NCBI GenBank assembly: GCA_016193585.1 | Contig: JACPRW010000006.1 | Location: 126,293 to 190,292, forward strand | Origin: Candidatus Aenigmatarchaeota archaeon | GTDB lineage: Archaea > Aenigmatarchaeota > Aenigmatarchaeia > GW2011-AR5 | Direction of reading: 5' to 3' | DNA length: 64,000 nucleotides | In this document: positions 2,852 to 62,169 of the stretch, piece by piece | Layout of the letters: each line of letters opens with the position of its first letter | Position numbering within the stretch: the stretch's first letter is position 1 | The notes under the pieces: model-generated | Databases searched by the model: none | What the model was told of the DNA's origin: nothing | The model's input: only the letters and a program-made list of their open reading frames with translations | Program-made: the position numbers and the translations under genes

Positions 2852-2946
2852 ATAGTGAACCAAGTAAATAATCAGGTATTATATCTTGGTTCACTTATAG
2901 CGGACAACAAAAGTAATATGTCGGTATTCTTTTGTTGTTCCACTAT
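2852..2946. repeat. Tandem kissing-hairpin element, copy 1
   Basis: Ends are ATAG and CTAT. The left stem GTGAACCAAG pairs with 2885-2894 around a 20-nt loop. The right stem GGACAACAAAAG (2902-2913) pairs with its complement ending near 2941 around the loop TAATATGTCGGTATT. The two loops can pair over about 15 positions (10 Watson-Crick, 2 G-U). It lies between mre11 and the divergent DUF488 gene. Nearly identical copies occur at 51954-52048 and 22105-22251. Confidence 0.85.
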
Positions 2947-3062
2947 AACACGTCCTCGGAGGCGGGCGGCACTGCCGACGGGTTAAAAAGCACTTTTCAC
3001 TTTTCGATGCCCGGCTAACCCTTATATGTCCACCACGGACTATTATACAAACTAGTGATAGC

Positions 3063-3908
3063 ATGAAAGTTCTGACACAGAAACAAAAAATACTGATGCT
3101 CGTACTGGACGAGATGCATAGAAGCGGGATTCGATCAAAAACGTATATGATGAAAACTCTTTTTTTGCTGAAAGAAGAGGGCAACCTCGACGGTACGATA
3201 AAATTCTATTCGTTTTATCCATACAAGTACGGACCTTTTTCATCGGTTTCCTACGATGACCTGAACAGACTCCAAAAGGCGGGGTTCGTAGATGATGCAT
3301 TAAAGATTACTTCACTGGGAAGACTGAAAATCAAACCAGACAAAGAAATGCAGTCTAAGGCAAGAAATATCATAACAGGGTTTGCGACTGAAAGCAAAAT
3401 AAGGGCATATGTATACGAAAAGTACCCCCAATACACAGTAAAAAGCGAACTTTCAAAGCCGGAAATAGAAAAAATGCCACCGGCTATTTTTACGATAGGC
3501 TATGAAGGCATGGATATAGACAGCTTCCTGAATGCTCTCATAGAAAACCAGATAGAAGTTGTTATAGATATACGATTCAACCCTTTCAGCATGCGGTTCG
3601 ACTTTATTCAGAACAGACTTAGAACCAAACTAGGAAATGTTGGAATAGAGTACGTTCACATAAAAGACCTGGGCATAGAGGGCAGCCTGAGAAAGGACCT
3701 CGACTCCCCCGAGGACTACAAGAAATTGTTTTCCGATTACAGAAGAAGAATACGCGAACATAACAATAATGAACTCGAGGCAGTAATAAAATCTGGTAAA
3801 GAAAAAAGGATAGCACTGCTTTGTTTCGAAAGCGAGAAAGAAAGATGCCATCGGCAAATAGTAGCGGATGAGATAGAAAACCACGGAACAAAGGTAGTGC
3901 ATTTATGA
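3063..3908 (+). CDS. DUF488-family protein with N-terminal winged-helix-like domain
   Basis: 281 aa. Residues about 135-281 match the DUF488 pattern: FTIGYEGMDIDSFL, then VVIDIRFNPFSMR, and near the end ALLCFESEKERCHRQIVADEI with a Cys-His pair. The first 100 residues (KTLFLLKEEG, then YPYKYGPFS, then a short helical region) resemble helix-turn-helix or Panacea/DUF4065-like domains, a tentative match. TTATATG lies about 35 bp before the ATG. The next gene overlaps the stop by ATGA, so the two are translationally coupled. DUF488 genes are often found in defence islands; the biochemical role is unknown. Confidence 0.8.
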   Translation: MKVLTQKQKILMLVLDEMHRSGIRSKTYMMKTLFLLKEEGNLDGTIKFYSFYPYKYGPFSSVSYDDLNRLQKAGFVDDALKITSLGRLKIKPDKEMQSKARNIITGFATESKIRAYVYEKYPQYTVKSELSKPEIEKMPPAIFTIGYEGMDIDSFLNALIENQIEVVIDIRFNPFSMRFDFIQNRLRTKLGNVGIEYVHIKDLGIEGSLRKDLDSPEDYKKLFSDYRRRIREHNNNELEAVIKSGKEKRIALLCFESEKERCHRQIVADEIENHGTKVVHL

Positions 3909-4624
3909 CAACGGAACGGATCCTCATTCTGGTACGGGCAATGCCCGAGGAAAGCAAAAAATACGGGCATACCGTTTGCGTCGCTGGTCTTACGGACAAC
4001 AATGAATGGAGGAGGCTGTATCCATTTGAGTTCCGGTACGGAAAGATATCGGTTCCGTTCAAGAAAAAAGACCTTATAGAAGCCGAGATCGCCGCCAGCG
4101 ACAAGGACAAGCGGAAGGAAAGCAGGAAGATTTCAAGCTACAGGAATCTTAATTTACCCCAAACTGAAAGCGATATATCGAAGAGATTGGAGACACTACA
4201 CTGCCATATATCTGATATGGAAGAACACGGGGACAGTATATGCGTCATAAAGCCACAGCTCGAAGGTATCGAGATTGCAGTGAATGACACCAGATTATAT
4301 GACGATCAGAAGTACTTCTCACTCATAACCGGAAGTCTTGAGACGAGGGAAAAAGTCAAGATGCCGATAGAAGTCCGTTACCTATTCAGGTGCGGAGGCG
4401 AATGCTGCGCTGAAAAGCCGCATAAAATCATAGCCATAGACTGGGAAATAAACGAGCTTGCGCGGAATCTTCTCAGGAGGCATTCCGACAAGCGTGCTGT
4501 CGAACGGAAGATGAAAGACAAGCTGTTCGACTGGATGAAATCAAGAAACCTCTATTTCATCATGGGCACCCATTTCAAATTCAGGACCCCCATGATCATC
4601 GGCATATTCTACCCAAAAAAATAA
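3905..4624 (+). CDS. Conserved partner protein of the DUF488 gene, function unknown
   Basis: 239 aa, overlapping the DUF488 gene by 4 bp (ATGA). The N-terminus is ERILILVRAMPEESKKYGHTVCVAGL. A middle Cys cluster RCGGECC (about residues 161-167) is followed by a basic helix and a C-terminal hydrophobic strand, HFKFRTPMIIGIFY. I recognise no catalytic motif. The tight overlap implies a two-gene unit acting with the DUF488 protein. The single Cys cluster could bind metal, but this is inference. Confidence 0.65.
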   Translation: MTTERILILVRAMPEESKKYGHTVCVAGLTDNNEWRRLYPFEFRYGKISVPFKKKDLIEAEIAASDKDKRKESRKISSYRNLNLPQTESDISKRLETLHCHISDMEEHGDSICVIKPQLEGIEIAVNDTRLYDDQKYFSLITGSLETREKVKMPIEVRYLFRCGGECCAEKPHKIIAIDWEINELARNLLRRHSDKRAVERKMKDKLFDWMKSRNLYFIMGTHFKFRTPMIIGIFYPKK

Positions 4625-4633
4625 GACAACCTG

Positions 4634-4690
4634 CTACTTCTGCACCTCGTTACAATCCGGACATCTCAGGAGGCGGTAGCGGGCTTTGAA
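4634..4690 (-). pseudogene. Tail fragment of a zinc-ribbon gene (paralogue of the gene at 5648-5845)
   Basis: Reverse-strand translation gives FKARYRLLRCPDCNEVQK and a stop. This aligns with the last 18 residues of the intact zinc-ribbon protein about 1 kb away (FKARYKFLRCPECDVVQK). No start or upstream half is present. The nucleotide match is clearly diverged, so this is an old remnant. It marks the left side of a 1-kb segment whose right side is the intact gene. Confidence 0.7.
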
Positions 4691-4731
4691 GAAGGTCTTG
4701 GTATGGAACACTTGGGCTGATAGCGTCCTAC

Positions 4732-4923
4732 ATGACCGCGTACTGGAATCCCTGGCGTGAGGCGTACCTTACGTTTGTATTCGTCTGCACCGCCTTCTTC
4801 TCCCACGATCCTCTTCTCGCCCTCACCGCAGACGGCGTCACCATGACAAACACCATCGGGCATTATGCGGGGTGGTTGATGGGGTGGGCAGTTGGGGCGA
4901 TTGAGAAAAAGACGGCTAATTGA
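4732..4923 (+). CDS. Short membrane-protein reading frame, possibly a gene fragment
   Basis: 63 aa with two hydrophobic stretches (YLTFVFVCTAFF and HYAGWLMGWAVGAI). The open frame continues upstream without a start codon to about 4690, adding YGTLGLIASY, so this may be the 3' part of a larger membrane protein whose beginning has been lost. No clear ribosome-binding site or TATA box. It sits between the zinc-ribbon tail fragment and the coiled-coil gene. No function assigned. Confidence 0.35.
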   Translation: MTAYWNPWREAYLTFVFVCTAFFSHDPLLALTADGVTMTNTIGHYAGWLMGWAVGAIEKKTAN

Positions 4924-4978
4924 GTTCATTGCGTTCGTCTTGCATAAATTTATTACTTTTTCTATGTAAATCTACTTT

Positions 4979-5638
4979 ATGAGTTCTCAGGAAATTGAAA
5001 AAGCTAGAGACTGGGCAACAGAACAAAAACTTAAAAGACTCGGGAAGCAAAAAGAAGTGCGAATAAGAGAAGAGAAAGAGAAGATCAAGATATCATTAGA
5101 AACCTGGCTAAAAAGTACTAATCTCAAGTCAACACAAAAACAGCGAAATAATGTCGTAGAGCTTGCTTTTCATATAAATGAATATAGAATCATGTCGTTG
5201 GAAAATATAGAAAAATCATATGATGGAAAACTAAAAGAAGCAGAAGATGATAGAGATACAAAATTAAGAGCCCTCAAAGATAGCCAAGAGAAAATAACGT
5301 CATTTATAGCGAAAAGCGGTATACCAGAGGCATTTTTTATTGAACTAGAAAATGTAGATATAAAAGATTATAAAGGTTGTCTAGAAGATGTCCTACTCGA
5401 AAACGGTTCTGAAACGTTCATATCCGATAACGAAAAAGCGATAGAATTAGCAATGGAGAGGTCAAAATTGAAACCAAAGCATGAAATAGAATCAGAATTC
5501 AATGGGCAAAAAGATAGCCTGGGCAAGGAAAAAGTGAATAGAATAAAGGCATACAATGACATCAAAGAGGAAATCAGTGAATTAACTATTTTTTCAGATT
5601 TCATCAACAAATATTTGGCTAAAAACAGTTCCACATAG
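4979..5638 (+). CDS. Coiled-coil protein of unknown function
   Basis: 219 aa, rich in Lys and Glu. Most of residues 1-110 and 150-200 have heptad-like patterning, suggesting a long coiled coil broken by a short region around IPEAFFIELENVDIKDYKG. No signal peptide, membrane segment or catalytic motif. ATAAATTTATTAC lies about 35 bp before the ATG, a convincing TATA box with a short leader. The A/T-rich coding sequence differs from the housekeeping genes nearby and resembles the restriction genes, consistent with acquisition. Confidence 0.7.
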   Translation: MSSQEIEKARDWATEQKLKRLGKQKEVRIREEKEKIKISLETWLKSTNLKSTQKQRNNVVELAFHINEYRIMSLENIEKSYDGKLKEAEDDRDTKLRALKDSQEKITSFIAKSGIPEAFFIELENVDIKDYKGCLEDVLLENGSETFISDNEKAIELAMERSKLKPKHEIESEFNGQKDSLGKEKVNRIKAYNDIKEEISELTIFSDFINKYLAKNSST

Positions 5639-5647
5639 AGCTAATAG

Positions 5648-5845
5648 CTATTTCTGCACCACATCGCACTCTGGGCACCTGAGGAACTTGTACCGGGCCT
5701 TGAACCCGCACTTCTGGCAGGTCAGGAGGTCGCGGGTTGGCGGACTTTTTTCAATATTTGCCTGTCCTTCCATTCGCTCCTTCATACTCATGGTATTGGC
5801 GCGCTTGCGTTGATTCCAGTTGAATGCTTTTTGTGAGACACCCAT
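5648..5845 (-). CDS. Small zinc-ribbon protein at the end of the type I RM operon
   Basis: 65 aa. The N-terminus is basic and the C-terminal half holds CQKC and CPEC, two CxxC knuckles 16 residues apart that should bind one zinc. It starts 22 bases after the hsdM stop on the same strand, so it is probably co-transcribed. A diverged copy of its last 18 codons lies at 4634-4690. Possible roles are nucleic-acid binding or an accessory to the methylase; neither is demonstrated. Confidence 0.7.
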   Translation of the reverse strand: MGVSQKAFNWNQRKRANTMSMKERMEGQANIEKSPPTRDLLTCQKCGFKARYKFLRCPECDVVQK

Positions 5846-5867
5846 AAAAATCTACCTATATCAAAGC

Positions 5868-7319
5868 CTAAATTTCCAAGTCTTTTAATGCTTGCGCTAT
5901 TTTATTCTCCAATTCCAATATCTTCTTTTTTATTACTTCAGGCTTTTCGTATTTTACTTCTTCGTACTCAATTTCTCTGTATTTTGAAATACTAAGGTCC
6001 CAGCTATTATCTTGGATTTCTTTTATCGGCACAAAGAAGTGCTTTTTCCTGCGGTCTGTGTTAGGCTCTTCTTTCCGCTTGCCGAACCTTTCCAATATGT
6101 CCGGTATATCGTTTTTCACAGTTTCAACTCTCTTATCGTCTAGGCTGTATCCGTCGTTTTCCATGTCATAAAACCACACCTTTTCGGTCGGCTCTCCTTT
6201 GGTGAAGAACAATACGACTGTAGAGACTCCTGCATAAGGCCTGAAAATACCAGACGGCATCGATACGACTGCATCCAGCCTGCACTTTTTCAGAACCATC
6301 TCCCTTATTGCCCTGTGCGCCTTTGAATTCCCGAACAGAACGCCGTCCGGCACGATAACGGCGCATCTACCGTGCGGCGCCATTACATGGAACATAAGCT
6401 CAAGAAAGAGCAATTCTGTCTTGGTTGTTTTTATCCTGAACCTGTCGCTTATCTCAGCTTCGTTTATGCTTCCCTTAAACGGCGGATTAGCGAGGACCAG
6501 GTCGTAGGCATTCTCAGGTATTTTATCATCTGCCAGTCTTGACAAAGAGTTCAGGCGTTCTATCCTCGGCTTCTTCAGCCCGTGCATCATCAGGTTCATC
6601 AGGACTATCTTCGTCATCGTATCATCGATATCGAACCCGTTGATAGATTTCTCGTCCAGTATTTTCTTCTGGACCTCTGTCAGTGTGCTTATATTGTCTT
6701 TCTTGTTCTTACTGAGTATATACTCGTAGGCGTTTACGAGGAATCCACCTGTACCGGCAGCAGGGTCAAGTATCATATCGCCGTATCTTGGCTTTGCCAA
6801 TTCCACCATCATTTTAATTATGTGCCTAGGCGTCCTGAACTGGCCGTTCTTGCCGGAAATCTGCAGCTCGCTCAAAAGATATTCGTATATGTCTCCCTGC
6901 GTATCCCTGTTCCTTTCCTTTATGTGCATGTCCTCGATTATCTTAACGGCCTCAATCAGCAGAGAAGCCGTAGGCATGGAGAAGTTTGCGTTCTTCATAT
7001 ACTCTTTATAGAAAGAGTCGCCGTCTCCAAGGTTTCTCATGAACGGAAAGACCTTTTCCCTCACGTGGTCAAGGATTTCCTCTGCGGGCATGTCCCGCCA
7101 GTTGCTCCATTTGCATTCCTCGTGGCCATGAAAAATTGACTTGTATTTGACTCCGGAGAAGTCTGCTTCCTGCTGCCTTTTGGTATCCTCATCCTCAAGT
7201 CGCTTCATGAAAATCAGGTACGACATCTGCGTGATGGCTTCAATCGGGTTAACCAAGCCACCGCTCCAGAACCTGTCCCAAAGTTTCCGTATCTGAGATT
7301 CGAGTTGTTTGTCGAGCAT
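5868..7319 (-). CDS. hsdM: Type I restriction-modification DNA methyltransferase subunit M
   Basis: N6-adenine methylase subunit. The N-terminal helical region (LDKQLESQIRKLWDRFW...AITQMSYLIFMKRLEDED) is typical of HsdM. The S-adenosylmethionine motif DPAAGTGGF and the catalytic NPPF (ANPPFKGS) are present and intact. I start it at ATG 7319, one base after the upstream stop; an in-frame TTG at 7352 and an ATG at 7337 would add 11 or 6 residues. It acts with HsdS and HsdR. Its upstream neighbour is the Shedu-like gene. Confidence 0.95.
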   Translation of the reverse strand: MLDKQLESQIRKLWDRFWSGGLVNPIEAITQMSYLIFMKRLEDEDTKRQQEADFSGVKYKSIFHGHEECKWSNWRDMPAEEILDHVREKVFPFMRNLGDGDSFYKEYMKNANFSMPTASLLIEAVKIIEDMHIKERNRDTQGDIYEYLLSELQISGKNGQFRTPRHIIKMMVELAKPRYGDMILDPAAGTGGFLVNAYEYILSKNKKDNISTLTEVQKKILDEKSINGFDIDDTMTKIVLMNLMMHGLKKPRIERLNSLSRLADDKIPENAYDLVLANPPFKGSINEAEISDRFRIKTTKTELLFLELMFHVMAPHGRCAVIVPDGVLFGNSKAHRAIREMVLKKCRLDAVVSMPSGIFRPYAGVSTVVLFFTKGEPTEKVWFYDMENDGYSLDDKRVETVKNDIPDILERFGKRKEEPNTDRRKKHFFVPIKEIQDNSWDLSISKYREIEYEEVKYEKPEVIKKKILELENKIAQALKDLEI

Positions 7320-7320
7320 A

Positions 7321-8307
7321 TCAATCGCTTTTCTCATTACTTTTAGAAACAATTTTTGTGCTATTTCTTTTTTCTATGAGTTTTATGAAATTTTCTCCTA
7401 TTTCTATCATGTCATCGTAAGTCAATATTTCTATGTCATGGAGATACGAATTAAGAGACTTCAATGCTCTTCTATTTATTTTTTCAGTCCTTCCTATTAC
7501 AATTAGACCTTTTGGCTTATGTATTGATTTGCCTTTTTCCCATAAAATGTTCGTTTTATCTATTTCGTATGTTTCCAAATAACCAATTATTTGTGATACC
7601 GCATTTTTCAAATCGAAAGACATACTGTATTTTCTAGAAATGTCATTTTCTGGGATTTCCTCCTCTTCGCCAACGAACAATTTACACGTAGGCAATTTTA
7701 GTTCTATAACATCAAAATACGTATCATACCGCTGGAGTAAAAAATCTATTCGGTCTCCTTTTCTAGTAATTTCCTCTTTTGTTTCTTCTATGTAAATTGG
7801 TCCAAATATCCACGGATGGTCATATAACCAATTCTGGATTTTCTTTTCCTTAGATTTTTGTTTTAAGAGACTTTTTAATTCTCTTATATCTTTTTTGAAA
7901 TCATCTAGACTTATCAAAAGTTTTTGCTGTCGTAATTGACCAACTTGCTGAAGAAGTTTCTCTATTATTTCTTTTTGATGAGCTATTTGCTTTTTTGATT
8001 TATCTTTAACATCTTTTAGAGCTTCATTAGACTTAATCATTTTTTCTATCTCTTCATCTGATAGCTCAGTAACCCATCCCAATTCCTCGGCACCTTTTTC
8101 TAACATAGTTTTAATAAGAAATAGTGATTTCTGGGATGGAATAGTGAACCAATTTTTGTATCGTTTTAATCGTAATACGAATTCTCCGTCTTTTTTTCGT
8201 TTCCCTAGGACAAGATGAATCCATCCAAACTCTGGATCACTGACTTTTATAATTTTTACAATCTCGTGTCTATCTGACCATTTATTTGCTTGTTCTGGTT
8301 CATCCAT
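7321..8307 (-). CDS. Shedu-like (DUF4263) nuclease inside the RM operon
   Basis: 328 aa. The C-terminal half carries the DUF4263/Shedu pattern: NWLYDHPWIFGP, then KGDRIDFLLQRY...FDVIELKLP, a PD-(D/E)XK-type core (D...E-x-K) around residues 170-200. The N-terminal third is predicted to be strand-rich, with a coiled coil (about 95-150) between. SduA of the single-gene Shedu anti-phage system has this C-terminal domain. The gene is coupled to hsdS on one side and hsdM on the other. Whether it is an independent system or works with the RM enzyme is open. Confidence 0.85.
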   Translation of the reverse strand: MDEPEQANKWSDRHEIVKIIKVSDPEFGWIHLVLGKRKKDGEFVLRLKRYKNWFTIPSQKSLFLIKTMLEKGAEELGWVTELSDEEIEKMIKSNEALKDVKDKSKKQIAHQKEIIEKLLQQVGQLRQQKLLISLDDFKKDIRELKSLLKQKSKEKKIQNWLYDHPWIFGPIYIEETKEEITRKGDRIDFLLQRYDTYFDVIELKLPTCKLFVGEEEEIPENDISRKYSMSFDLKNAVSQIIGYLETYEIDKTNILWEKGKSIHKPKGLIVIGRTEKINRRALKSLNSYLHDIEILTYDDMIEIGENFIKLIEKRNSTKIVSKSNEKSD

Positions 8308-19319: not shown

Positions 19320-19464
19320 ATAGTAGATGACATTAATTTTCATACAAGATAATGTCATCTGCATATCCCTAGAAAGCATAGCTTTCTGGGATGCCAGAAA
19401 ACTCTTGTTTTCTGTGCATAGCAGTGACATCCTAATATGTCTGAATACTTATGTCACATGCTAT
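19320..19464. repeat. Tandem kissing-hairpin element with two short hairpins inserted between its arms
   Basis: The left hairpin 19320-19365 has stem GATGACATTA and its complement. The right hairpin 19418-19464 has stem GCAGTGACAT/ATGTCACATGC, with ends ATAG and CTAT. Between the arms lie two short-loop hairpins: AGAAAGC-ATA-GCTTTCT (about 19371-19387) and CAGAAAAC-TCTT-GTTTTCTG (about 19395-19414). Loop-loop pairing is weaker here than in other copies. The 326 bases 19270-19595 hold this and the next element and no gene I can support. Confidence 0.7.
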
Positions 19465-19558
19465 ATACTAAACTGCGAAACTTATATGACGCAGATTCGC
19501 AGTTTGTATACAGATAACTGCTCATAATATGTCATGCAAATTATGCAGTTATCTATAC
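19465..19558. repeat. Tandem kissing-hairpin element directly abutting the previous one
   Basis: The left stem AAACTGCGAA pairs with TTCGCAGTTT, and the right stem AGATAACTGC pairs with GCAGTTATCT. The loops contain ATGAC and GTCAT, which can pair with G-U extension on both sides. The ends are ATAC/GTAT-like rather than strict ATAG/CTAT. It follows the preceding element with no spacer. Confidence 0.65.
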
Positions 19559-19595: not shown

Positions 19596-19862
19596 ATGAA
19601 TTACCAGAAGAGAATACTGGACAAAGTAGATAGCCTGACAGCCGGGCGACCGGAATTAAGTCCTGTAGGGGATGCATTCCGGGACTATTTTGCATCCAAT
19701 GCGAGCGGCTTTGTATTTGGTGCCACACTTTCTGCAGTCATGAGAACTGGTGGGATTGGGGTGGAAGACCCCCTCTACAGAGAGCTTTTTGCTGCAGCTG
19801 AAGAAGCGGACGTGTATTCTGGAGAAAATCTCAGGACACCGCAGGAATTTGCATTGATATAG
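19596..19862 (+). CDS. Small hypothetical protein (88 aa)
   Basis: Begins MNYQKRILDKVDSL and includes a Gly/Ala-rich middle (FVFGATLSAVMRTGGIGVEDPLYREL) that could be one amphipathic or weakly hydrophobic helix. No Cys, no signal peptide and no recognised motif. It lies between hairpin elements at 19465-19558 and 19888-19981. Coding composition looks ordinary for this genome. No function assigned. Confidence 0.5.
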   Translation: MNYQKRILDKVDSLTAGRPELSPVGDAFRDYFASNASGFVFGATLSAVMRTGGIGVEDPLYRELFAAAEEADVYSGENLRTPQEFALI

Positions 19863-19887
19863 ATAATTGCGCAGCTTATGTCGTATT

Positions 19888-19981
19888 ATAGCAATACAAG
19901 GAAATAAACACGATATGACTTCCTTGTTTGCTATATGTGAAGCAAATGTATAATATCGGTATTATTTATTTGCTTCACTAT
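19888..19981. repeat. Tandem kissing-hairpin element
   Basis: Ends ATAG/CTAT. The left stem AGCAAtACAAGGAA pairs with TTCCTTGTtTGCT, and the right stem GTGAAGCAAAT pairs with ATTTGCTTCAC. The left loop contains CGATAT and the right loop ATATCG, a perfect 6-bp loop-loop match in a sequence context different from other copies. It starts 26 bp after the preceding stop codon. Confidence 0.85.
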
Positions 19982-19995
19982 AACGCGCAATTTTC

Positions 19996-20082
19996 TATTT
20001 TTTGGTGCACCGGAAAACCTTGTTTTCCGCGTGTAGCGGACAACAAAAGTATTATGTCGGTATTCTTTTGTTGGTCCACTAT
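19996..20082. repeat. 5'-truncated kissing-hairpin element with one short hairpin
   Basis: Contains the short hairpin CGGAAAAC-CTT-GTTTTCCG (20011-20029) and the right-arm hairpin GGACAACAAAAG...CTTTTGTTGGTCC ending CTAT at 20082. It is almost identical to the right two-thirds of the element at 22105-22251. The left arm is missing, so this is a partial copy. Confidence 0.75.
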
Positions 20083-20087
20083 AACCA

Positions 20088-21955: not shown

Positions 21956-22050
21956 ATAGTGAACCCAGTAAATAATCAGGATATGTTATGACTGGGTTCA
22001 CCTATAGTTCACAAGGAAATAATATCCAGAATCTTTCCTTGTAGAACTAT
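21956..22050. repeat. Tandem kissing-hairpin element 3' of the eS6 gene
   Basis: Ends ATAG/CTAT. The left stem GTGAACCCAGT pairs perfectly with ACTGGGTTCAC, and the right stem ACAAGGAAA pairs with TTTCCTTGT plus an outer AGTTC/GAACT. The loops carry GGATAT and ATATCC, a perfect 6-bp match. It may end the eS6 transcript. The 316 bases 21954-22269 hold this element and the next and no gene. Confidence 0.85.
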
Positions 22051-22104: not shown

Positions 22105-22251
22105 ATAGTGAACCAAGTAAACAATCAGGTATTATATCTTGGTTCACTTACACCCAAAAAGCAAAGCTTTTTGGTGCACCGGAAAACCTTGTTTTCCGCG
22201 TGTAGCGGACAACAAAAGTAATATGTTGGTATTCTTTTGTTGGTCCACTAT
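22105..22251. repeat. Kissing-hairpin element with two short hairpins inserted between arms
   Basis: The left arm GTGAACCAAG...CTTGGTTCAC and right arm GGACAACAAAAG...CTTTTGTTGGTCC match copy 1 (2852-2946). Where copy 1 has TTATAGC between arms, this copy has about 50 extra bases with hairpins CCAAAAAGC-AAA-GCTTTTTGG and CGGAAAAC-CTT-GTTTTCCG. The comparison shows short hairpins inserted into a pre-existing element. Confidence 0.85.
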
Positions 22252-25626: not shown

Positions 25627-25719
25627 ATAGTAGGTTCACTTAATAACCAAACTTTTCATCTGAACCTGCTATACGGTATGTTCTGGATAAAATGTTCACT
25701 AATCAACAGAACATACTAT
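25627..25719. repeat. Tandem kissing-hairpin element
   Basis: Ends ATAG/CTAT. The left stem AGTAGGTTCA pairs with TGAACCTGCT (one G-U), and the right stem GTATGTTCTG pairs with CAGAACATAC. The loops can pair over about 15 bases with two single-base bulges. The 229 bases 25568-25796 otherwise hold only a TATA-like CCTATAAATAGG at about 25739 and a GGGATCCC palindrome before the transposase fragment. Confidence 0.75.
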
Positions 25720-25796
25720 AATACGGCTCCTTAGAAACCCTATAAATAGGATGGGATCCCATACCCCAACTGAGTGATCAGGGATGGGGTACACCA

Positions 25797-26057
25797 ATGA
25801 ACGTTAGTTCGTCAAGGCTAATAAAGTTTACCAAGCAGAAGTACTGGAATTCCCTGTTCGACAGGAAAGCTTATCATCAGAGAGGCAAAAGCGAGTGCGT
25901 GAACTCGGTGATAAAGAGAAAGTACAAGGATTTCCTGAGTTCTCATGAATGGAAGAATCAGCACAAAGAAGCTGCGCTTCTTTGTGTGGTGTACAATGTT
26001 GACAGGGATGTAAAGAAAATGACAGCTTTTCTCATAGGATTTCTAAGGAGCTTATAA
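25797..26057 (+). pseudogene. C-terminal fragment of an IS4/IS5-type DDE transposase
   Basis: 86 aa. AYHQRGKSECVNSVIKRKYKDFLSS matches the region around the last catalytic residue (Glu) of DDE transposases, followed by NQHKEAALLCVVYNVDR. The two catalytic Asp residues and the N-terminal domain are missing and no terminal inverted repeats are evident, so this is a dead remnant. It is the only insertion-sequence protein trace I see in the window. Confidence 0.75.
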
Positions 26058-26417: not shown

Positions 26418-27614
26418 TTAGTTCCTTGTCACACCTGTTTCTATCGCCGCTTTCCTCACCGCTTCAGAAACGCTTTTCACCACCGCCTTGTCGAGCGCAT
26501 TGGGAATTATATGTTCTTTTGACGGGCTGTTTACACAGTTCGCCAGCGCATAGGCAGCCGCGAGCTTCATCTCGCTGCTGATGCGGACGGCTCGTGCATC
26601 CAGCGCGCCGCGGAAGACGCCGGGGAACGCGAGCACGTTGTTGATCTGGTTGGGGTAGTCGCTCCTTCCGGTGCCGACAATGTAGGCGCCTGCGGCAAGC
26701 GCGTCGTCAGGCATGATTTCAGGCACCGGGTTTGCCATGGCAAGGACGATAGCTTTGTCGTTCATCGTCGCGACCATCTCCCTGCTCAGAACGTTCGCCC
26801 TTGACACGCCAATGACCGCGTCCGCACCCTGAAGCGCGTCGGCGAGTGTTCCTTTCCTTTGCTCGCGGTTGGTGAAGCGGGCCGTTTCCTCCTTGTATTT
26901 GTTGAGGTCAGGCCTGCCCTGATAGATGATGCCTTTGCTGTCGCATTCGATGATTTCCCTGACCGACGTGCATATGTTCCGGTCGATGCCGAGACAGAGC
27001 AGCAGCCTTGTCGTCGCGGTGCCGGCAGCGCCTGCGCCGCTGATGACAACACGCAAATCCTCGAGTTGCTTGCCAGCAACCTTCGCGGCATTGATGAGGG
27101 CGGCGAGCACGACGATGGCGGTGCCGTGCTGGTCATCATGGAATACCGGTATGCCTATGCCCTGAAGCTGCTCCTCAATGAGGAAGCACCGGGGCGCCGC
27201 GATATCCTCGAGGTTGATGCCGCCGAACACCGGGGCGATATTTTTCACGATGCGTACAATCTCTTCCGCATCCTGCGTCGCCAGACAGAGAGGGAACGCG
27301 TCGATGTCGGCAAATTCCTTGAATAATATTGCCTTGCCTTCCATGACCGGCAGCGCCGCCTCGGGGCCTATGTTGCCCAGGCCGAGCACTGCAGAGCCGT
27401 CAGAAACAACAGCGACGCTGTTCGCTTTCATCGTGTAACGGTACACGTTGCGCTTGTCGCTCGCTATCTCCTTGCACACTTCGGCAACGCCGGGCGTGTA
27501 GGCGAGCGTCAGGTCGTGGGATGACTCGATCTTCACTTTTGAACTGACTTCAAGCTTCCCTTTGTTCTTTTCATGCATCTCAAGGGCTTCTTTTTTGAGA
27601 TCGATACTTTTCAC
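26418..27614 (-). CDS. NAD(P)-dependent malic enzyme (oxaloacetate-decarboxylating)
   Basis: 398 aa. Short bacterial/archaeal-type malic enzyme: [11 protein letters not shown], then [24 protein letters not shown] (catalytic Lys region), then [12 protein letters not shown] and [11 protein letters not shown] (metal ligands), then the nucleotide-binding [13 protein letters not shown] and NPVPEI. It interconverts malate and pyruvate plus carbon dioxide. The start is GTG 27614, which lies inside a truncated hairpin element, so the element seems to supply the start codon and leader. Confidence 0.95.
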
Positions 27615-27674
27615 CTGAACCTGCTATAGTGTATGTTCTGCATAAAATGTTCACTAACCAACAGAACATACTAT
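27605..27674. repeat. Truncated kissing-hairpin element between malic enzyme and trxB
   Basis: Matches the element at 25627-25719 from ACTTTTCA onward. It retains the end of the left arm (TGAACCTGCT) and the complete right hairpin AGTGTATGTTCTG...CAGAACATACT, ending CTAT at 27674. The left arm's first half is replaced by malic enzyme coding sequence. It ends two bases before the trxB stop codon. Confidence 0.75.
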
Positions 27675-33588: not shown

Positions 33589-34274
33589 TGCAGGCATTCA
33601 TCAGGACACGCAACGTGCGGAAAACGTACCGTTCGGGAACCGTCGAGGTCAACGCGCTCAATGGCGTTACTGCCGACATCAAGAAGGGCGAGTTCGTCGC
33701 CATCATGGGACCTTCCGGCTCTGGCAAGTCGACGCTGCTCCATGTCATCGGGACGCTTGACCAGCCTACCAGCGGGACAATCACCATCAAAGGCGTCGAC
33801 GTGCTGAAGCTCAGCGACGACGGGAAAACGTCCTTCAGGCTCAAGGAAATGGGATTTGTGTTCCAGTTCTATTCGCTTCTTCCCGAGCTGACCGCGGCGG
33901 AGAACGTATTCGTCCCCCAGATGCTCATCGGCAAAAGCGGCGGCGAAATGACCGCCAACTGCACCGAGATCCTCACCTCTCTTGGCCTCAGGGAACGGAT
34001 GCACAACTACCCGTTGCAGCTGTCGGGCGGGGAGCAGCAGCGCATTGCGATAGCCCGCGCGCTGGTCAACAAGCCGGAACTTCTTTTAGCCGACGAACCA
34101 ACAGCCTCACTGGATTCCAAATCGGCGCAGAACGTCCTGCACGCTTTCAAGGAACTCAACGAAACGCTGGGGCAGACGATTGTCATGGTAACGCACGACG
34201 AGCATCTCGGCAGGATGGCCGACCGCGGCATCTGGCTGAGGGACGGCATGATTGAGAAGGAAAAAACATTCTAA
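33588..34274 (+). CDS. ABC transporter ATPase, LolD/MacB type
   Basis: 228 aa. Walker A GPSGSGKST, Q-loop FQFYSLLPELTAAEN, signature LSGGEQQRIAIARAL, Walker B LLLADEPTASLD and switch His in VTHDEHLG. Start GTG 33588 overlaps the permease stop (TAGTG). It pairs with the FtsX permease just upstream. A hairpin element starts next to its stop codon. Confidence 0.95.
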   Translation: MQAFIRTRNVRKTYRSGTVEVNALNGVTADIKKGEFVAIMGPSGSGKSTLLHVIGTLDQPTSGTITIKGVDVLKLSDDGKTSFRLKEMGFVFQFYSLLPELTAAENVFVPQMLIGKSGGEMTANCTEILTSLGLRERMHNYPLQLSGGEQQRIAIARALVNKPELLLADEPTASLDSKSAQNVLHAFKELNETLGQTIVMVTHDEHLGRMADRGIWLRDGMIEKEKTF

Positions 34275-34366
34275 TAGTAAAGAACATTGATTTTGGAACA
34301 TTTTACAATGTTCTTTCCATATAGCAGATTGTGGTTAAAAGTTCCATTATTATTACAATCTGCTAT
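34274..34366. repeat. Tandem kissing-hairpin element
   Basis: Ends ATAG/CTAT. The left stem AAAGAACATTG pairs with CAATGTTCTTT, and the right stem AGCAGATTGT pairs with ACAATCTGCT. The left loop contains TGGAAC and the right loop GTTCCA; TTTTA and TAAAA extend the loop pairing past one bulge. A close copy lies at 48051-48143. The 346 bases 34275-34620 hold this and the next element and no gene. Confidence 0.85.
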
Positions 34367-34367: not shown

Positions 34368-34573
34368 ATAGTATGTTCAGTTTATTTTGGAACATTTTAT
34401 CTTGAATGCCTTGAAAATTGCTGCCTTCAGGCAGCAGATGCAACAAGGCATTCGGGATGCCATGCTCCACGGAAACCACCGACTGCAGTCGGTGGTATAG
34501 AGGAGCATATCATGCAGAACATACCGTATAGCAGGTTCGAATGAAAAGTTCCAGTAGTATTCGAACCTACTAT
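34368..34573. repeat. Large kissing-hairpin element with nested short hairpins in its left loop
   Basis: Ends ATAG/CTAT, 206 bp. The left arm GTATGTTC pairs with GAACATAC near 34518-34525. Its loop holds TTTTGGAAC and three further hairpins: GAATGCCTTG/CAAGGCATTC with GCTGCC/GGCAGC inside it, ATGCTCC/GGAGCAT, and a 20-bp palindrome at 34477-34496. The right arm AGGTTCGAAT/ATTCGAACCT has loop AAAAGTTCCA. TGGAAC/GTTCCA pairing between loops is kept. It abuts the preceding element with one base between. Confidence 0.75.
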
Positions 34574-51953: not shown

Positions 51954-52048
51954 ATAGTGAACCAAGTAAATAATCAGATATTATATCTTGGTTCACTTAT
52001 AGCGGACAACAAAAGTAATATGTCGGTATTCTTTTGTTGGTCCACTAT
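51954..52048. repeat. Tandem kissing-hairpin element directly 3' of merA
   Basis: Ends ATAG/CTAT. Nearly identical to copy 1 (2852-2946): left stem GTGAACCAAG, right stem GGACAACAAAAG, with the same loops apart from AGATATT for AGGTATT in the left loop. It lies between merA and the thioredoxin-like gene, so it could end or attenuate the mer transcript. Confidence 0.85.
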
Positions 52049-56706: not shown

Positions 56707-56716
56707 ATGAACCATT

Positions 56717-56810
56717 ATAACCGACCAACTTTCTATTCATGATAGTATACAAGCTGGTCACCTATAGTTAACCAAGGTATGGTATCCTGATTCTTTACTT
56801 GGTTACCTAT
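56717..56810. repeat. Kissing-hairpin element forming the probable padR 5' leader
   Basis: The left stem GACCA...TGGTC and right stem TAACCAAG...CTTGGTTA lie inside ATAA/CTAT ends. The two loops can pair along 14 positions with 11 Watson-Crick and one G-U (TCATGATAGTATAC against GTATGGTATCCTGA), the longest loop-loop match in the window. It ends 2 bases before ATG 56715. The TATA box for padR (TATTTAAATA, 56829-56838) is just upstream of it, so padR mRNA would begin with this structure. Confidence 0.75.
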
Positions 56811-56814
56811 AACT

Positions 56815-56855: not shown

Positions 56856-56869
56856 ATAGGATATCCTAT
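56856..56869. promoter_or_regulatory. PadR-type operator site 2
   Basis: ATAGGATATCCTAT, a perfect palindrome overlapping the TATATATAGG promoter of the downstream small-protein operon. The centres of sites 1 and 2 are 41 bp apart, about four DNA turns, so two dimers would lie on the same face. Confidence 0.65.
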
Positions 56870-56916
56870 ACATCATTCCCCAAATGAATATGTGAAGGAT
56901 AATCGAGGTGATAGCA

Positions 56917-57051: not shown

Positions 57052-57060
57052 GTGATAGCG

Positions 57061-57321: not shown

Positions 57322-57364
57322 ATCTTTTTACCTCTTTTATAATCATTATTCAAAGGACGATACG

Positions 57365-58312
57365 ATGAGGGCAGCACAAATCAACAAGTACGGCAGCAAA
57401 GAAGTTGTCGAAATTGACAAAAACGCGACAAAGCCCGCCCTTTCTGCCGGTCATGCCATCATCGAGGCGCGCGCAGCCGGCGTCAACCCGGTCGACTGGA
57501 AAATCCGCGAGGGGTACCTGCAGCAGATGATGCCGCTGAAGTTCCCCGCAACCCTTGGAGGGGATTTTTCAGGAGTTGTAGCCGACATCGGAGCGGGAGT
57601 TTCAGGCTTCAAGAAAGGTGATGAGGTATACGGGCTGGCAAGCGTCCTGGCCGGCGGCTCGGGGTCGTTTGCCGACTATATCTCAGCTGACGCGGCGCTG
57701 ATTGCCCACAAGCCGAAGAACGCCAGCCATACCGAGGCAGCCGCATTGCCGCTCGCAGGGATAAGCGCATGGGATGTACTCGTCAACAAGATGGAACTGT
57801 CCAAAGGGCAGAAGATTCTCATTCACGGCGGTGCGGGCGGCATCGGATCGATCGCCATACAGCTTGCCAAGCACGCGGGAGCATACGTGGCGACAACGGT
57901 CAGCGCCGACGACAGGCAGTACGTTACGGGACTCGGCGCAGACGAAGTCATCGACTACAAAAGCGAGTCATTCGAAGGCCTGCTGCACGGCTATGACGCA
58001 GTCTTTGATACGGTAGGCGGCGAGGTGTACAAGAAATCGTTCAGCGTGCTCAAGAAAGGCGGCATCATCGTTTCCATGCTGGAGCAGCCCGACGAGGAGC
58101 TGACGAAGAAATACGGCGTGCGCGCTATGGCGGAAGCCACGGGCTATGCCATAAACACCCACAACCTGTCCGCGCTGGCTGCGCTGGTGGACCGCGGCGT
58201 CATCAAAGTGCACGTTGACAGGGTATTTCTTCTGGAGCATGCAGCAGAAGCCCTCGCGCACCAGCAAAGCGGGCATCCCCGAGGCAAGATTGTCCTCGAA
58301 GTGAAGCGATAG
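57365..58312 (+). CDS. Quinone/zinc-type alcohol dehydrogenase-like oxidoreductase
   Basis: 315 aa medium-chain dehydrogenase. MRAAQINKYGSKEVVEI opening, GGDFSGVVADIGAGVSGFKKGDEVYG, then the NADPH motif ILIHGGAGGIGSIAIQLAKHAG and a final RGKIVLEVKR. It lacks the Cys/His ligands of zinc alcohol dehydrogenases, so it is of the zeta-crystallin/quinone reductase type. Start ATG 57365; an upstream in-frame ATG overlaps the previous gene. Followed by a flavin reductase gene. Confidence 0.9.
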   Translation: MRAAQINKYGSKEVVEIDKNATKPALSAGHAIIEARAAGVNPVDWKIREGYLQQMMPLKFPATLGGDFSGVVADIGAGVSGFKKGDEVYGLASVLAGGSGSFADYISADAALIAHKPKNASHTEAAALPLAGISAWDVLVNKMELSKGQKILIHGGAGGIGSIAIQLAKHAGAYVATTVSADDRQYVTGLGADEVIDYKSESFEGLLHGYDAVFDTVGGEVYKKSFSVLKKGGIIVSMLEQPDEELTKKYGVRAMAEATGYAINTHNLSALAALVDRGVIKVHVDRVFLLEHAAEALAHQQSGHPRGKIVLEVKR

Positions 58313-58334
58313 AAGAACGGCATGAGGTGATTAT

Positions 58335-58898
58335 GTGGACCTACCATGGGGCGACGAGCGGTCGCTGAAATTCATAACGAACGTCGGCCTCATCACGAGC
58401 GACGGGCCGCACGGACCCAACGTCATGGCGGCCGAATGGACGCATCACGTTTCGTACAAGCCGGGCTATATAGCGGTGTGCATCGGGTCCGGGAAGGCGA
58501 CACTAGAGAACATCACGAAAACAAAAAAATTCGGCGTCAACATCACCGCGACTGGTCAGTCGGTCATGGCACATGTTGCGGGAAACTACTCAGGGAAAAA
58601 GACCGATAAAATCGGCGCGCTCAAGGAACTTGGCTTCACGTTCTACAATGGAGAGAAAACGGGGCTGCATATGGTTCAGGGTGCGGCGCTCAATGCGGAA
58701 TGCAAGGTTATAAAAATGACAACCGTTGGCGACCACGTCATGGTCATCGGCGAAGTGCTGAGCGCTTCTGCCACGGACAAAGAACCGGTGGCATACCACA
58801 AGGGCATGTATTGGAACATGGAAACGCCTACCGCAAAACCATCTGAAGCAGAGCGCGACCACATGCATAAGATTGTCGCCAAGCATCTGAAGAAATAG
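58335..58898 (+). CDS. Flavin reductase-like FMN-binding protein
   Basis: 187 aa. Split-barrel flavoprotein: ITNVGLITSDGPHGPNVMAAEWTHHVSYKPGYIAVCIG, then KKFGVNITATGQSVMAHVAGNYSG, then NAECKVIKMTTVGDHVMVIGEVL, the pattern of flavin reductase-like proteins that bind FMN. Start GTG 58335 has GAGGTGATT upstream. It follows the quinone oxidoreductase by 22 bases, suggesting joint use of NAD(P)H and flavin. Confidence 0.88.
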   Translation: MDLPWGDERSLKFITNVGLITSDGPHGPNVMAAEWTHHVSYKPGYIAVCIGSGKATLENITKTKKFGVNITATGQSVMAHVAGNYSGKKTDKIGALKELGFTFYNGEKTGLHMVQGAALNAECKVIKMTTVGDHVMVIGEVLSASATDKEPVAYHKGMYWNMETPTAKPSEAERDHMHKIVAKHLKK

Positions 58899-58933
58899 CC
58901 ATCTTTTTATTTCTCATCGTTCAGTATAACGCC

Positions 58934-59392
58934 ATGGAAGCCGAAGCGAAGCTGCAGCAGTACATGGCGGCGCATACCATGCCCGGGACTTTCGTGCGGT
59001 TCGCAGCATCGTGCCATACCGCCGAGGAGGCGGCGCGCGCCGCAGGGACGACCATCGACGAGATCGTCAAGAACGTCTGCCTCATTGGAGGCGGCTGGCT
59101 CATTGTCGCCATCGTCATGGGCAGGGACCGCGCGAGCACGACGCGGATTGCAGAGCTGCTCGGCATCGAGCGTCCGCGACCTGCGGCAGCGGAAGAGATT
59201 CTTATGAAAACGGGCTATCCGGCAGGCGGCGTACCGTCCTTCGGCTACGAGGCGACGTTCCTCATCGACGCGAACGTCATGGAGCGCCCCCTCGTCTACA
59301 CGAGCGGCGGCTCGGACCGCTCGCTCGTCCGCATCGCGCCGGCTGATTTGCAGAAGGCGAATGGCGCTGCCGTCGCCCGCATCCGGAAGTAA
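58934..59392 (+). CDS. YbaK/ProX-type aminoacyl-tRNA deacylase-like protein
   Basis: 152 aa. FAASCHTAEEAARAAGTTIDEIVKNVCLIGGGWLIVAIVMGRDRA, then AAEEILMKTGYPAGGVPSFGYEATFLIDANVM, then VYTSGGSDRSLVRIAPADL give the full YbaK fold with Lys and the GGVPPxG-like loop. It would clear mischarged tRNA. It differs from the coupled YbaK at 22270, so there are two in this window. Confidence 0.9.
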   Translation: MEAEAKLQQYMAAHTMPGTFVRFAASCHTAEEAARAAGTTIDEIVKNVCLIGGGWLIVAIVMGRDRASTTRIAELLGIERPRPAAAEEILMKTGYPAGGVPSFGYEATFLIDANVMERPLVYTSGGSDRSLVRIAPADLQKANGAAVARIRK

Positions 59393-59393
59393 T

Positions 59394-60518
59394 CTATGCG
59401 ATGCAGAATTCCTTGTTCCCGAAACGTACTCTTTTCATAATTTCTTCAACCGCTTCATGCATAACAGCTGTTTCATCCGGTAAACACTGCACTGGCTCCC
59501 GCATCTCGTCGATACGCCATGCCAGTTCCCTGCACTTTTGTATTTCTGCTTCCGGCTCTTCGTTCAGCTCCATTTCGTACACCCTGAGGAATAGCAGCTC
59601 GGCGAGCCTCTTGTTCATGGAAAGCGGCGAATCCGGAACAAACCGTTTGATGCGGTAATCCAACCCGTGCGTTTCGCACAGGCCCTTTACCGTCCTTCCC
59701 AATGATGCCCATGAATTGTCCTGCGGGGAAAACCTTCCCTGATACAGCGTTTTGTACCTGTCAACAAAATTTTTATTGTACCGTTCCAGCGATTTGTAGA
59801 AGGATTCAGCCTGCGCATCGCTCAGCGCCAGACCACCTGCCACCACGAACCGTCCTCCGCTCTCTTTCGTCTTCCTTATGACTGCTTCAAGATTCTCCCT
59901 GCTGTCCGTGATGAACGGCAGCACCGGCATGAGCGCGGTGCCTGTGTGTATGCCGGCTTCACTGCACTTTTTCATCGCAAGAAACCTGCTTTCAACTGAT
60001 GATGCAAACGGCTCAAAGAATTCCCGGTAGCCCGCAGACTGGTGCGAGCCGATGCTGAACACCACGCACGCCCATGACCGCCTGCTTATTTCCCTGATGA
60101 CATCAATGTCCCTGACAACGAGCGGCGATTTTGCTATGATGATGACGGGAAATTCATGCGTGCGGCAGACCTCGAGCATTTTTCTCGATAGCATGAACGT
60201 GCTTTCAACAGGCTGATAGTCGCCCACGCCGATGACGTCGCGCTCCACGTCCTGCAACTCCTTATCAAGAACCAGATGCGCATTCGTTTTAACGCGCAGG
60301 TACTGGGAGAACGTGTCATCCATGCCTACGGTGCGCTCATTCCCCACGTTAAGCCCGTACCCGTCCTGGCGCAGGAAGCAGTAGGCGCAGGCGTACTGGC
60401 AGCCGAGGTACGGGCTCGCCGAATACTTTGCCCAGAACCAGCCATCCTGATGCGCAAAGGTGTTGAGAACCTTATCGACGGTGATTTCCTCTACAACAAT
60501 CGTTCGGGAGGCTGGCAT
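59394..60518 (-). CDS. Radical SAM protein, SplB/Rv2578c-like
   Basis: 374 aa. PYLGCQYACAYCFLRQDGYGLN holds the CxxxCxxC cluster for the 4Fe-4S centre. VGDYQPVEST and KSPLVVRDIDVIREI follow in the TIM-barrel pattern of spore photoproduct lyase-like proteins. Start ATG 60518. The substrate is unknown; relatives range from DNA photoproduct repair to peptide modification. Convergent with the YbaK gene and divergent from lplB. Confidence 0.85.
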   Translation of the reverse strand: MPASRTIVVEEITVDKVLNTFAHQDGWFWAKYSASPYLGCQYACAYCFLRQDGYGLNVGNERTVGMDDTFSQYLRVKTNAHLVLDKELQDVERDVIGVGDYQPVESTFMLSRKMLEVCRTHEFPVIIIAKSPLVVRDIDVIREISRRSWACVVFSIGSHQSAGYREFFEPFASSVESRFLAMKKCSEAGIHTGTALMPVLPFITDSRENLEAVIRKTKESGGRFVVAGGLALSDAQAESFYKSLERYNKNFVDRYKTLYQGRFSPQDNSWASLGRTVKGLCETHGLDYRIKRFVPDSPLSMNKRLAELLFLRVYEMELNEEPEAEIQKCRELAWRIDEMREPVQCLPDETAVMHEAVEEIMKRVRFGNKEFCIA

Positions 60519-60552
60519 AAAGCAATTAATGCTTGCGGGATTAAATAGCAAC

Positions 60553-60840
60553 ATGCACGGCATTGCAGCAGAAAAAGTCCCTGACGGCAAGCTGCTGCGC
60601 GTGAAAGTGGACTACAGCGACCTCATCGAGCGCGTGCAGCTGACCGGCGATTTCTTTGTGCACCCCGAGGACGACGTGCTGCGCATCGAGGAAGCGATAG
60701 CCGGCATGCGCGCCGACGAGGATGAGGAAACGATTACGGATGTCGTCAGGACTATTGTCACCGAAAACCGCATAGAGCTTATCGGCATCAGTCCCGAGGC
60801 TATAGCGCGGAACGTCAGGAGGGCAATCGAAAGTAGATAG
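60553..60840 (+). CDS. lplB: Lipoate-protein ligase accessory subunit (LplB, C-terminal domain)
   Basis: 95 aa. KLLRVKVDYSDLIERVQLTGDFFVHPEDDVLRIEEAIAGM (in part) is the separate C-terminal domain of archaeal bipartite lipoate ligase, needed to make lipoyl-AMP. It lies directly before the catalytic subunit gene lplA, as in Thermoplasma. Start ATG 60553; a longer frame to 60460 overlaps the divergent gene. Confidence 0.88.
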   Translation: MHGIAAEKVPDGKLLRVKVDYSDLIERVQLTGDFFVHPEDDVLRIEEAIAGMRADEDEETITDVVRTIVTENRIELIGISPEAIARNVRRAIESR

Positions 60841-60849
60841 AATGGGATA

Positions 60850-60919
60850 CCTTGAAGAGCAAAGCTCTTCGAGGTCCCGAAGAAGTTTTAACTTCTTCGA
60901 GGACGACTCACGAAGTGAG
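60850..60919 (+). repeat. Three short hairpins between lplB and lplA, the last covering the lplA Shine-Dalgarno
   Basis: CCTTGAAGAGC-AAA-GCTCTTCGAGG (60850-60874), CGAAGAAGTT-TT-AACTTCTTCG (60878-60899) and CTCAC-GAA-GTGAG (60907-60919). The third hairpin's 3' arm begins GAGGGG (60917-60922), the ribosome-binding site 5 bases before ATG 60927. Same geometry as 44685-44697 with A-T in place of one G-C pair. Confidence 0.8.
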
Positions 60920-60926
60920 GGGCATT

Positions 60927-61670
60927 ATGAAATGGAGGATTATCGAACTGGAGCAGCGGAACGCGTTCATGCACATGGCGCTCGACGAGGCGGTAAGCGA
61001 GGCGGTTGCAGGCGGCGCGAACCCGACCATCAGGTTCTACACATGGAACCCGGGCGCGGTGAGCATCGGCTGTTTCCAGTCGCTGCACGACGAGGTTGAT
61101 GTCGAGGCGTGCACGAACAGGGGCATCGACGTCGTGCGGCGAAGGACCGGCGGCGGCGCGGTGTACCATGACATGAACGGTGAAATCACCTACAGCGTCA
61201 TCGCGTCCGAGGCATTACTGCCGAAAGGCATCACCGAATCGTACCTCGCCATATGCGGCTGGGTCATCGCCGGCCTTTCGCACCTCGGGTTGTCCGCCCG
61301 GTTCAAGCCCATCAACGACATACTCGTCGGCGACCGGAAGATTTCCGGCAATGCGCAGACGCGGCGGAACGGCGTCGTGCTCCAGCACGGCACCATACTG
61401 TACGACCTCGACGTGCACACGATGTTCTCGCTGCTCAAGGTAAGCAAGGAGAAAATATCGGACAAGATGATCACCGATGTCAGGCAGCGGGTAACCCGCG
61501 TGCTTGACCACACGAATGTTTCGCCGCAGGAAGTGTACGAGGCGCTCCTCGTCGGCTTCACTGCCGACAAGGAGCATGAGTTCGGCGCGTACACCAGTGA
61601 GGAACTCAGGCGGGCCGAGGAACTTGCCGCGACGCGCTATGCCACGAAGGAATGGAACGAGATGCGGTAA
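60927..61670 (+). CDS. lplA: Lipoate-protein ligase A, catalytic subunit
   Basis: 247 aa. RFYTWNPGAVSIGCFQS, VVRRRTGGGAVYHDMNGEITYS (lipoate pocket) and KPINDILVGDRKISGNAQ with the catalytic Lys are complete. It adenylates lipoate and attaches it to Lys of E2 and related proteins. LplB is encoded just upstream and the lipoylated E2 at 62369-63598. Start ATG 60927 follows a hairpin-buried GAGGGG. Confidence 0.93.
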   Translation: MKWRIIELEQRNAFMHMALDEAVSEAVAGGANPTIRFYTWNPGAVSIGCFQSLHDEVDVEACTNRGIDVVRRRTGGGAVYHDMNGEITYSVIASEALLPKGITESYLAICGWVIAGLSHLGLSARFKPINDILVGDRKISGNAQTRRNGVVLQHGTILYDLDVHTMFSLLKVSKEKISDKMITDVRQRVTRVLDHTNVSPQEVYEALLVGFTADKEHEFGAYTSEELRRAEELAATRYATKEWNEMR

Positions 61671-61757
61671 CGTGCACTCCGCCTCTCGTTTAGTAGGTTC
61701 CAAAGACGCAATTCCCCAGCAGCCGCATGTGTACGAACAAACACCAGAATTCAAGAA

Positions 61758-62169
61758 TTAGTAGCCCCTACCTCTGCTGAAGGCTTTTACAACCCAAACA
61801 ATAGAATTTTCTACAAAATATTCAAATCTATAGTCTCCAACGCGAAGTCCGTAAAGCGTATTGAGCCGTCCTTTCAGTTTCTTTACATCTGTTCCTGATC
61901 TCGATTCATATGGATTATCTTTATAGTGAACCCACAAAGGAATCCGGACATGAATTTGTGGGTTCACCTATAGCTCACAAGGAAATAATACAAGGTGGAT
62001 TCCATGAATCCACCTGTACAGGAGAATCTTCGATTCTCCTCGTATCTTGGTTGTTTCCTTGTAGAGCTATAAGTGTATTTAGCGCTGCTCTGCACAGGTC
62101 TCTTTCATGGTCTTGCAAAGAATCAAGAAATTTGAGAATTTTTGGGTGCAATCTAACTTCGTATACCAT
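61758..62169 (-). pseudogene. relE: relE toxin gene interrupted by a kissing-hairpin element
   Basis: Codons 1-33 (62169-62071) read MVYEVRLHPKILKFLDSLQDHERDLCRAALNTL and codons 34-87 (61922-61758) read KDNPYESRSGTDVKKLKGRL...YGLRVGDYRFEYFVENSIVWVVKAFSRGRGY. Both halves together give a normal-length RelE-type toxin. Removing exactly 61923-62070 restores the frame without a stop. With the element present, translation reads into it and stops, so the toxin is probably inactive. Its antitoxin lies just upstream with overlapping ends. Confidence 0.88.
61923..62070. repeat. Kissing-hairpin element inserted in relE, with two nested short hairpins
   Basis: 148 bp with ends ATAG/CTAT. The left stem GTGAACCCACAAA pairs with TTTGTGGGTTCAC over 13 bp. 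The right stem ACAAGGAAA/TTTCCTTGT has outer AGCTC/GAGCT. The right loop holds GGTGGATTC-CAT-GAATCCACC (61994-62014) and AGGAGAATC-TTC-GATTCTCCT (62020-62040). Flanks join as ...ATCTTT|AAGTG..., with no target duplication, so insertion was between TT and AA. Confidence 0.88.

Follow-up and report, generated by a model that had tools for sequence, protein, structure and literature searches.

Dispersed two-hairpin elements of an Aenigmatarchaeota genome as probable non-autonomous IS630/Tc1-mariner transposons

Why should one pair of tandem hairpins, with loops complementary to each other, recur throughout an archaeal genome? The question was raised by a stretch of 64,000 nucleotides (nt) of Candidatus Aenigmatarchaeota archaeon (assembly GCA_016193585.1, contig JACPRW010000006.1, positions 126,293 to 190,292), referred to below as the window. 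A preliminary description of the window had proposed a dispersed family of elements with paired stems and complementary loops, folded into a kissing-loop structure. The family, the stems and the complementary loops were confirmed here, and the kissing loop was replaced by terminal inverted repeats of IS630 type. With high confidence, the elements are read from their sequences as non-autonomous IS630/Tc1-mariner transposons (miniature inverted-repeat transposable elements, MITEs) with a transposase supplied in trans. Support for this reading comes from outer inverted ends, a fixed spacing from tip to inner motif, empty sites, nested insertions and ends shared with IS630 transposons. The elements constitute a new MITE superfamily of DPANN archaea, distinguished by having each terminal repeat enclosed in a hairpin of its own.

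Ends, insertion sites and related transposons

The elements are dispersed, non-coding and multicopy, and follow the plan TATAG-hairpin-TATAG-hairpin-CTATA. Full copies measure ~93-98 nt and consist of ATAG, hairpin 1, a CATATAG-like joint, hairpin 2 and CTAT; at least 10 subfamilies (A to J) combine this common plan with different stems and loops. Both ends carry AATCnGGAtAT at a fixed distance of 25 nt from the outer tip. Where the motif was recognised, it started 25 nt from the TATAG tip in 54/54 left ends and 41/42 right ends; inner arm lengths varied over 14-18.

The flanks were TA on both sides and mostly TTAA (T at -1 in 96/106, A at +1 in 103/106, T at -2 in 79 and A at +2 in 92), a symmetric preference (TT...AA). 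Insertion at TA is indicated by TA at both borders and by empty sites reading TTAA. For the element at 403-498 of locus L034, an unoccupied counterpart 95.5% identical was found in L167 and reads TT|AA. The element at 19888-19981 of the window interrupts a subfamily I hairpin that occurs uninterrupted in more than 10 other places, with flanks up to 100% identical. Duplication of TA is the insertion chemistry that we infer, and it leaves the same sequence as blunt insertion at TT|AA, from which it is indistinguishable at this level. The target of the L034 element was also observed to be a perfect palindrome, split exactly in the middle by the insertion (AAAGGACTTCTT|AAGAAGTCCTTT).

Terminal repeats are shared with two autonomous IS630 transposons, by subfamily H with one in genome G020 (same order) and by the profile of subfamilies A, C, D and E with one at locus L169 (same class). 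The G020 transposon has a reading frame of 317 amino acids matching PF13358 (7.8e-34) and the IS630 transposase model NF033545 (3.3e-67); its two ends, TATAGATAACTGCGAAACTTGGATGACGCC and TATAGATAACTGCATAAGTTACATGACATA, were read from different contigs. When the whole 64-kb window was scanned with these ends, the left one scored best at the left end of the element at 19464-19557 (24/30) and the right one at the right end of the same element (28/30), the best places outside it reaching 18 and 19 of 30. The L169 transposon is 992 base pairs (bp) long, has both ends in place (TATAGCTTTCCAAATAAATAATCCGTACTG / TATAGTACTCCAAATAAATAACCCGGACTA) and sits at TTAA. Its transposase is broken into two frames, both of which match NF033545 at 1e-22 to 1e-24, values below the curated cut-off for what are halves of a broken gene. 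The AATCnGGAtAT ends match those of L169. On a profile of 118 ends from subfamilies A, C, D and E, the L169 ends were beaten by only 2 and 1 of 20000 random stretches, and the left end of the element at 2852..2946 was among the best window matches to them. No inverted partner of the tip was visible nearby in the G020 or the L169 transposon, and the hairpins are therefore a feature of the miniature elements.

In the mechanism proposed, a full IS630 transposon would supply its DDE transposase in trans. The enzyme, probably of the G020/L169 type, would bind the motif that lies 25 nt inward of each TATAG tip, cut at the tips and paste the element into TA, preferably within TTAA. Each inner stem arm would repeat part of the outer end in inverted orientation, and for this reason each terminal repeat would lie in its own hairpin with the inner motif seen as a loop.

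Several observations weigh against this explanation. The IS630 transposase domain PF13358 was not found in the elements' own genome (G000; 1.17 Mb, completeness estimated at 91%) and occurs in only 14/156 genomes of the phylum. A transposase in the same genome is usual and not strictly required, as MITEs outlive their parents. Possibly the home elements are relics; alternatively, the enzyme could be encoded in the missing part of the genome or come from outside. The plain identity of the L169 ends, 19-21 of 30, overlaps the maxima of shuffled controls, and only the profile test is strong. No matching autonomous element was found for subfamilies B, F, G and J, which are joined to the family by architecture and TATAG/TA ends alone. 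Lastly, the stems are clearly maintained, although a plain MITE requires no hairpin.

Other candidates for the parent were set aside. No TATAG ends were seen on the IS630 copies of genomes G002, G021 and G011. A transposase-like remnant at 25797-26057, near the element at 25627, has by eye different terminal repeats of its own (GCTCCTTAGAAA); within the region adjoining that element (25720-26057) it appears by eye as 86 amino acids between inverted repeats of approximately this sequence. Apart from these candidates, the same elements, together with mini modules, were observed to interrupt or border a second IS630-like gene of G020 (L136, L139).

Copies in the window and distribution

The described structure was present at every one of the 15 places listed in the preliminary description. 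Corrected points are an extra copy at 19464-19557 and the nesting of the 19888 copy within the loop of another element (19859-19998). The copies are as follows.

2852..2946, plus strand: full element, subfamily D, with TGAACCAAG / GGACAACAAAAG stems, at TA
19320..19464, plus strand: full element, subfamily F, with a two-hairpin module at the central TATA joint
19464..19557, plus strand: full element, subfamily H, both ends being those of the G020 IS630
19859..19998, plus strand: hairpin 1 of a subfamily I element, loop interrupted; more than 10 uninterrupted copies read TATT|AACGC
19888..19981, minus strand: full element, subfamily E, inserted at TT|AA in the subfamily I hairpin loop; exact empty site
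19999..20083, plus strand: partial D element, module hairpin and hairpin 2 (first given as 19996)
21956..22050, plus strand: full element, subfamily A type copy, directly after the stop codon of an open reading frame
22105..22251, plus strand: full element, subfamily D, with the two-hairpin module ACACCC...GCGTGT at the central TATA joint
25627..25719, minus strand: full element, subfamily B1; related copies elsewhere
27605..27673, minus strand: partial B1 element
34274..34366, plus strand: full element, subfamily B, loops TGGAAC/GTTCCA, TA flanks
34368..34573, plus strand: subfamily B2 element with another two-hairpin insert in the hairpin-1 loop (about 34398-34507); uninterrupted relative in L009
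48051..48143, plus strand: full element, subfamily B
51954..52048, plus strand: full element, subfamily D, directly after the end of an open reading frame
56717..56811, minus strand: full element, subfamily C-like
61923..62070, plus strand: full element, subfamily A, with a 51-nt mini element in the hairpin-2 loop
61992..62042, plus strand: nested mini element CAAGG-hairpin-TGTACA-hairpin-CTCG between duplicated TA (61990-61991, 62043-62044); absent from short copies

The copies at 19320, 22105, 34368 and 61923 are longer than usual because another two-hairpin piece sits inside them. In long copies a mini element, TA-CAAGG-hairpin-TGTACA-hairpin-CTCG-TA, occupies one fixed site of the hairpin-2 loop. 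Its stems differ among genomes yet stay paired, and the mini elements are of the same design at half size. This 50-odd-nt piece, with TGTACA at its centre and TA on both sides, was observed at the same hairpin-2 loop site across subfamilies and genomes (window 61990-62044; loci L010, L020, L026, L028, L036, L063, L083, L107, L117, L121, L124, L126 and L148). Two other two-hairpin modules, TATCCC...AGATAG and ACACCC...GCGTGT, were observed at the central TATA joint in subfamilies A, D, E and F (window 19366-19421 and 22149-22196; loci L017, L021, L030 and L034). The longer insert at 34398-34507, in the hairpin-1 loop of the B2 element, consists of the two hairpins GAATGCC...GGCATTC and ATGCTCC...GGAGCAT.

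That the copies form one dispersed family of common plan, as first described, is far beyond chance: the pattern TATAG-N20-50-TATAG-N20-50-CTATA gave 99 matches in the elements' own genome and none when reversed as a control. The 99 matches represent fewer than 99 elements, the plan being near-symmetric and some elements being counted on both strands. This loose pattern is informative only within the family and order, and falls to background level in distant genomes. A blast-type search started from the 21956 copy yielded 45 matches in its own genome and matches in 20/40 genomes searched, its own counted. Copies 97-98% identical are present in another genus, near-identical copies occur at unrelated places, and named Aenigmatarchaeota genomes, including archaeon GW2011_AR5, hold related copies.

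Viral contigs were rejected as carriers, the single match being an isolated 21-mer that lacked a hairpin partner; the longer element pattern gave no matches in them. The Calothrix and Kapaibacterium matches were likewise only lone 21-mers. One match assigned to Omnitrophica (L127, MHGP01000037.1) is a full element. Over 5 kb this contig was observed to be ~77% identical to a homologous Aenigmatarchaeota contig (L105), and it is probably misbinned. The MITE superfamily has spread through the family and order of the present DPANN archaeon, in whose genome of ~1 Mb several dozen copies or more are present.

Stems, loops and alternative explanations

Stem pairing was counted as Watson-Crick pairs only, over distinct sequences. 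Hairpin 1 was paired in 159/176 cells, against at most 136 after shuffling, and hairpin 2 in 190/200, against at most 145; most stem positions show several pair types. This is compensatory change, in agreement with the earlier statement that stem sequences differ while pairing stays. That account of the hairpins had overlooked a conserved single-base bulge on the 3' side of hairpin 2, which results from the outer arm exceeding the inner arm by one base. The outer ends of the element pair with each other over only about 5 bp. Selection on RNA should favour G:U on one strand. No wobble excess was seen in the stems, GT+TG against AC+CA being 3 vs 7 in hairpin 1 and 29 vs 24 in hairpin 2. As stem G:T is not in excess over A:C, nothing points to RNA, and the pattern looks like that of DNA or of a mutational process. 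Three readings of the upkeep of the stems stand: the hairpins may aid the transposase, they may have a role in, or set a limit on, neighbouring transcripts, or template switching in replication may perfect the palindromes.

A second selected role for the hairpins of IS630-type MITEs, as terminator, in RNA stability or as a cruciform exposing the ends, would be an addition to the transposon explanation and not an alternative to it; it is put forward tentatively, as something we would not quite expect. Both hairpins are strongly maintained, and several copies directly follow stop codons. Such adjacency, however, follows from the TTAA target, which contains the stop codon TAA; wobble pairs lack strand bias, and the stems could persist without selection if palindromes were corrected from a template as the DNA is replicated. 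The more specific proposal, that the IS630-type DDE transposase prefers ends in extruded cruciforms, selection keeping the hairpins while stem sequence drifts, is considered unlikely. The maintained double hairpins pose a clean question, namely whether an IS630 transposase uses structure in its ends.

The paired inverted hairpins, a conserved tetranucleotide bordering the stem (ATAG rather than the GTAG of REPINs) and the conserved bulge resemble REPINs or IS200/IS605 ends, which would be moved by a Y1 HUH transposase recognising single-stranded hairpins. Such an identity is very improbable and was rejected: a search of the elements' own genome with PF01797 (Y1/RAYT transposase) gave no match, the flank preference is symmetric, the bulge is accounted for by the fixed length of the outer arm, and the ends match IS630 transposons instead.

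Loop complementarity is real (GGATAT/ATATCC, CGATAT/ATATCG, TGGAAC/GTTCCA) and, as first described, is achieved by different sequences, these belonging to different subfamilies (for example GGATAT/ATATCC and TGGAAC/GTTCCA). Covariation was tested by comparing the loop pair of the same copy with loops re-paired among copies of one subfamily. In subfamily A (60 distinct pairs) same-copy motifs agreed no better than re-paired ones, at 9.28 vs 9.50 of 17 fixed positions, and 4683/5000 shuffles reached the real agreement. An independent re-pairing test by alignment score gave 4.56 for real and 4.73 for re-paired loops. Loops of shuffled letters scored only 3.77, below both, and both loops therefore carry a common motif in opposite orientation. 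Between subfamilies, which were hand-picked and some of them related, real loop pairs beat cross pairs modestly (6.80 vs 5.65, 19 of 1842; pairing energy dG -6.7 vs -4.6), as would be expected if each subfamily owns its terminal inverted repeat. The two ends repeat each other in inverted orientation, and this is why their loops are complementary; a motif that is common, inverted and subfamily-specific has the look of terminal inverted repeats.

The loop-loop covariation that had been taken as a sign of selection for a kissing structure, whether of RNA or of single-stranded DNA, is therefore absent within subfamily A. Two outcomes that the preliminary description had named as speaking against it were obtained, namely loops that do not covary when a larger alignment is used, and ends of a described kind of mobile element. 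A kissing-loop RNA, whose hairpins would fold in a transcript and whose loops would pair to form a regulatory or processing element, could account for the covarying stems and for loops complementary in several subfamilies above cross-subfamily pairs, but was rejected as scarcely credible on the two negative re-pairing tests and the lack of wobble bias, besides the C-A mismatch of the common left motif GGACAT opposite ATATCC, an Rfam search of the elements in which no family matched, and ends that are IS630 terminal repeats. Inverted terminal repeats inside hairpins can thus mimic loop-loop covariation, which is a trap for RNA-motif searches.

Comparison with known systems

REPINs, like the archaeal elements, are dispersed, non-coding pairs of inverted hairpins. 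They are associated with Y1 enzymes, and in this they differ from the present elements, whose genome has no PF01797 match. Other archaeal non-autonomous elements are known, such as the Sulfolobus SM and other archaeal MITEs; the portion of a review of prokaryotic MITEs consulted here names archaeal examples, none of them from DPANN (PMC10969869).

In ISY100 and other IS630/Tc1-mariner elements the N-terminal helix-turn-helix domains of the transposase bind the inverted repeats, the tips are cut and insertion occurs at TA with TA duplication (PMC2170065). ISY100 and other IS630 elements carry their own transposase, whereas the archaeal elements have the needed ends and no gene. Unlike the miniature elements, the two archaeal IS630 copies (G020 and L169) have no hairpin at their ends.

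ERIC and Correia/NEMIS elements are intergenic, 100-200 bp long, with TA at their ends and a stable fold (PMC2229807). They form one long end-to-end stem, whereas the outer ends of the archaeal elements pair over ~5 bp.

The CIR repeats of Caulobacter/Brucella consist of two long inverted repeats that form two linker-joined arms with a protein-recognition motif, GANTC, at the loop, unlike other bacterial MITEs (PMC2229807). With their two arms, the CIR repeats of Caulobacter are closest in shape to the archaeal elements. They differ in sequence and lineage, and the CIR motif is a methylation site whereas the archaeal loop motif forms the inner portion of a transposon end.

The RUP element of Streptococcus pneumoniae is non-autonomous and ~100 bp long, has ends matching IS630-Spn1 and a TA target, and often lies inside other mobile elements (PMC2229807). 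Being IS630-derived and directed to TA, it is closest in origin to the archaeal elements. The latter differ in having a separate hairpin around each terminal repeat and many coexisting subfamilies. To our knowledge RUP is not built of two hairpins.

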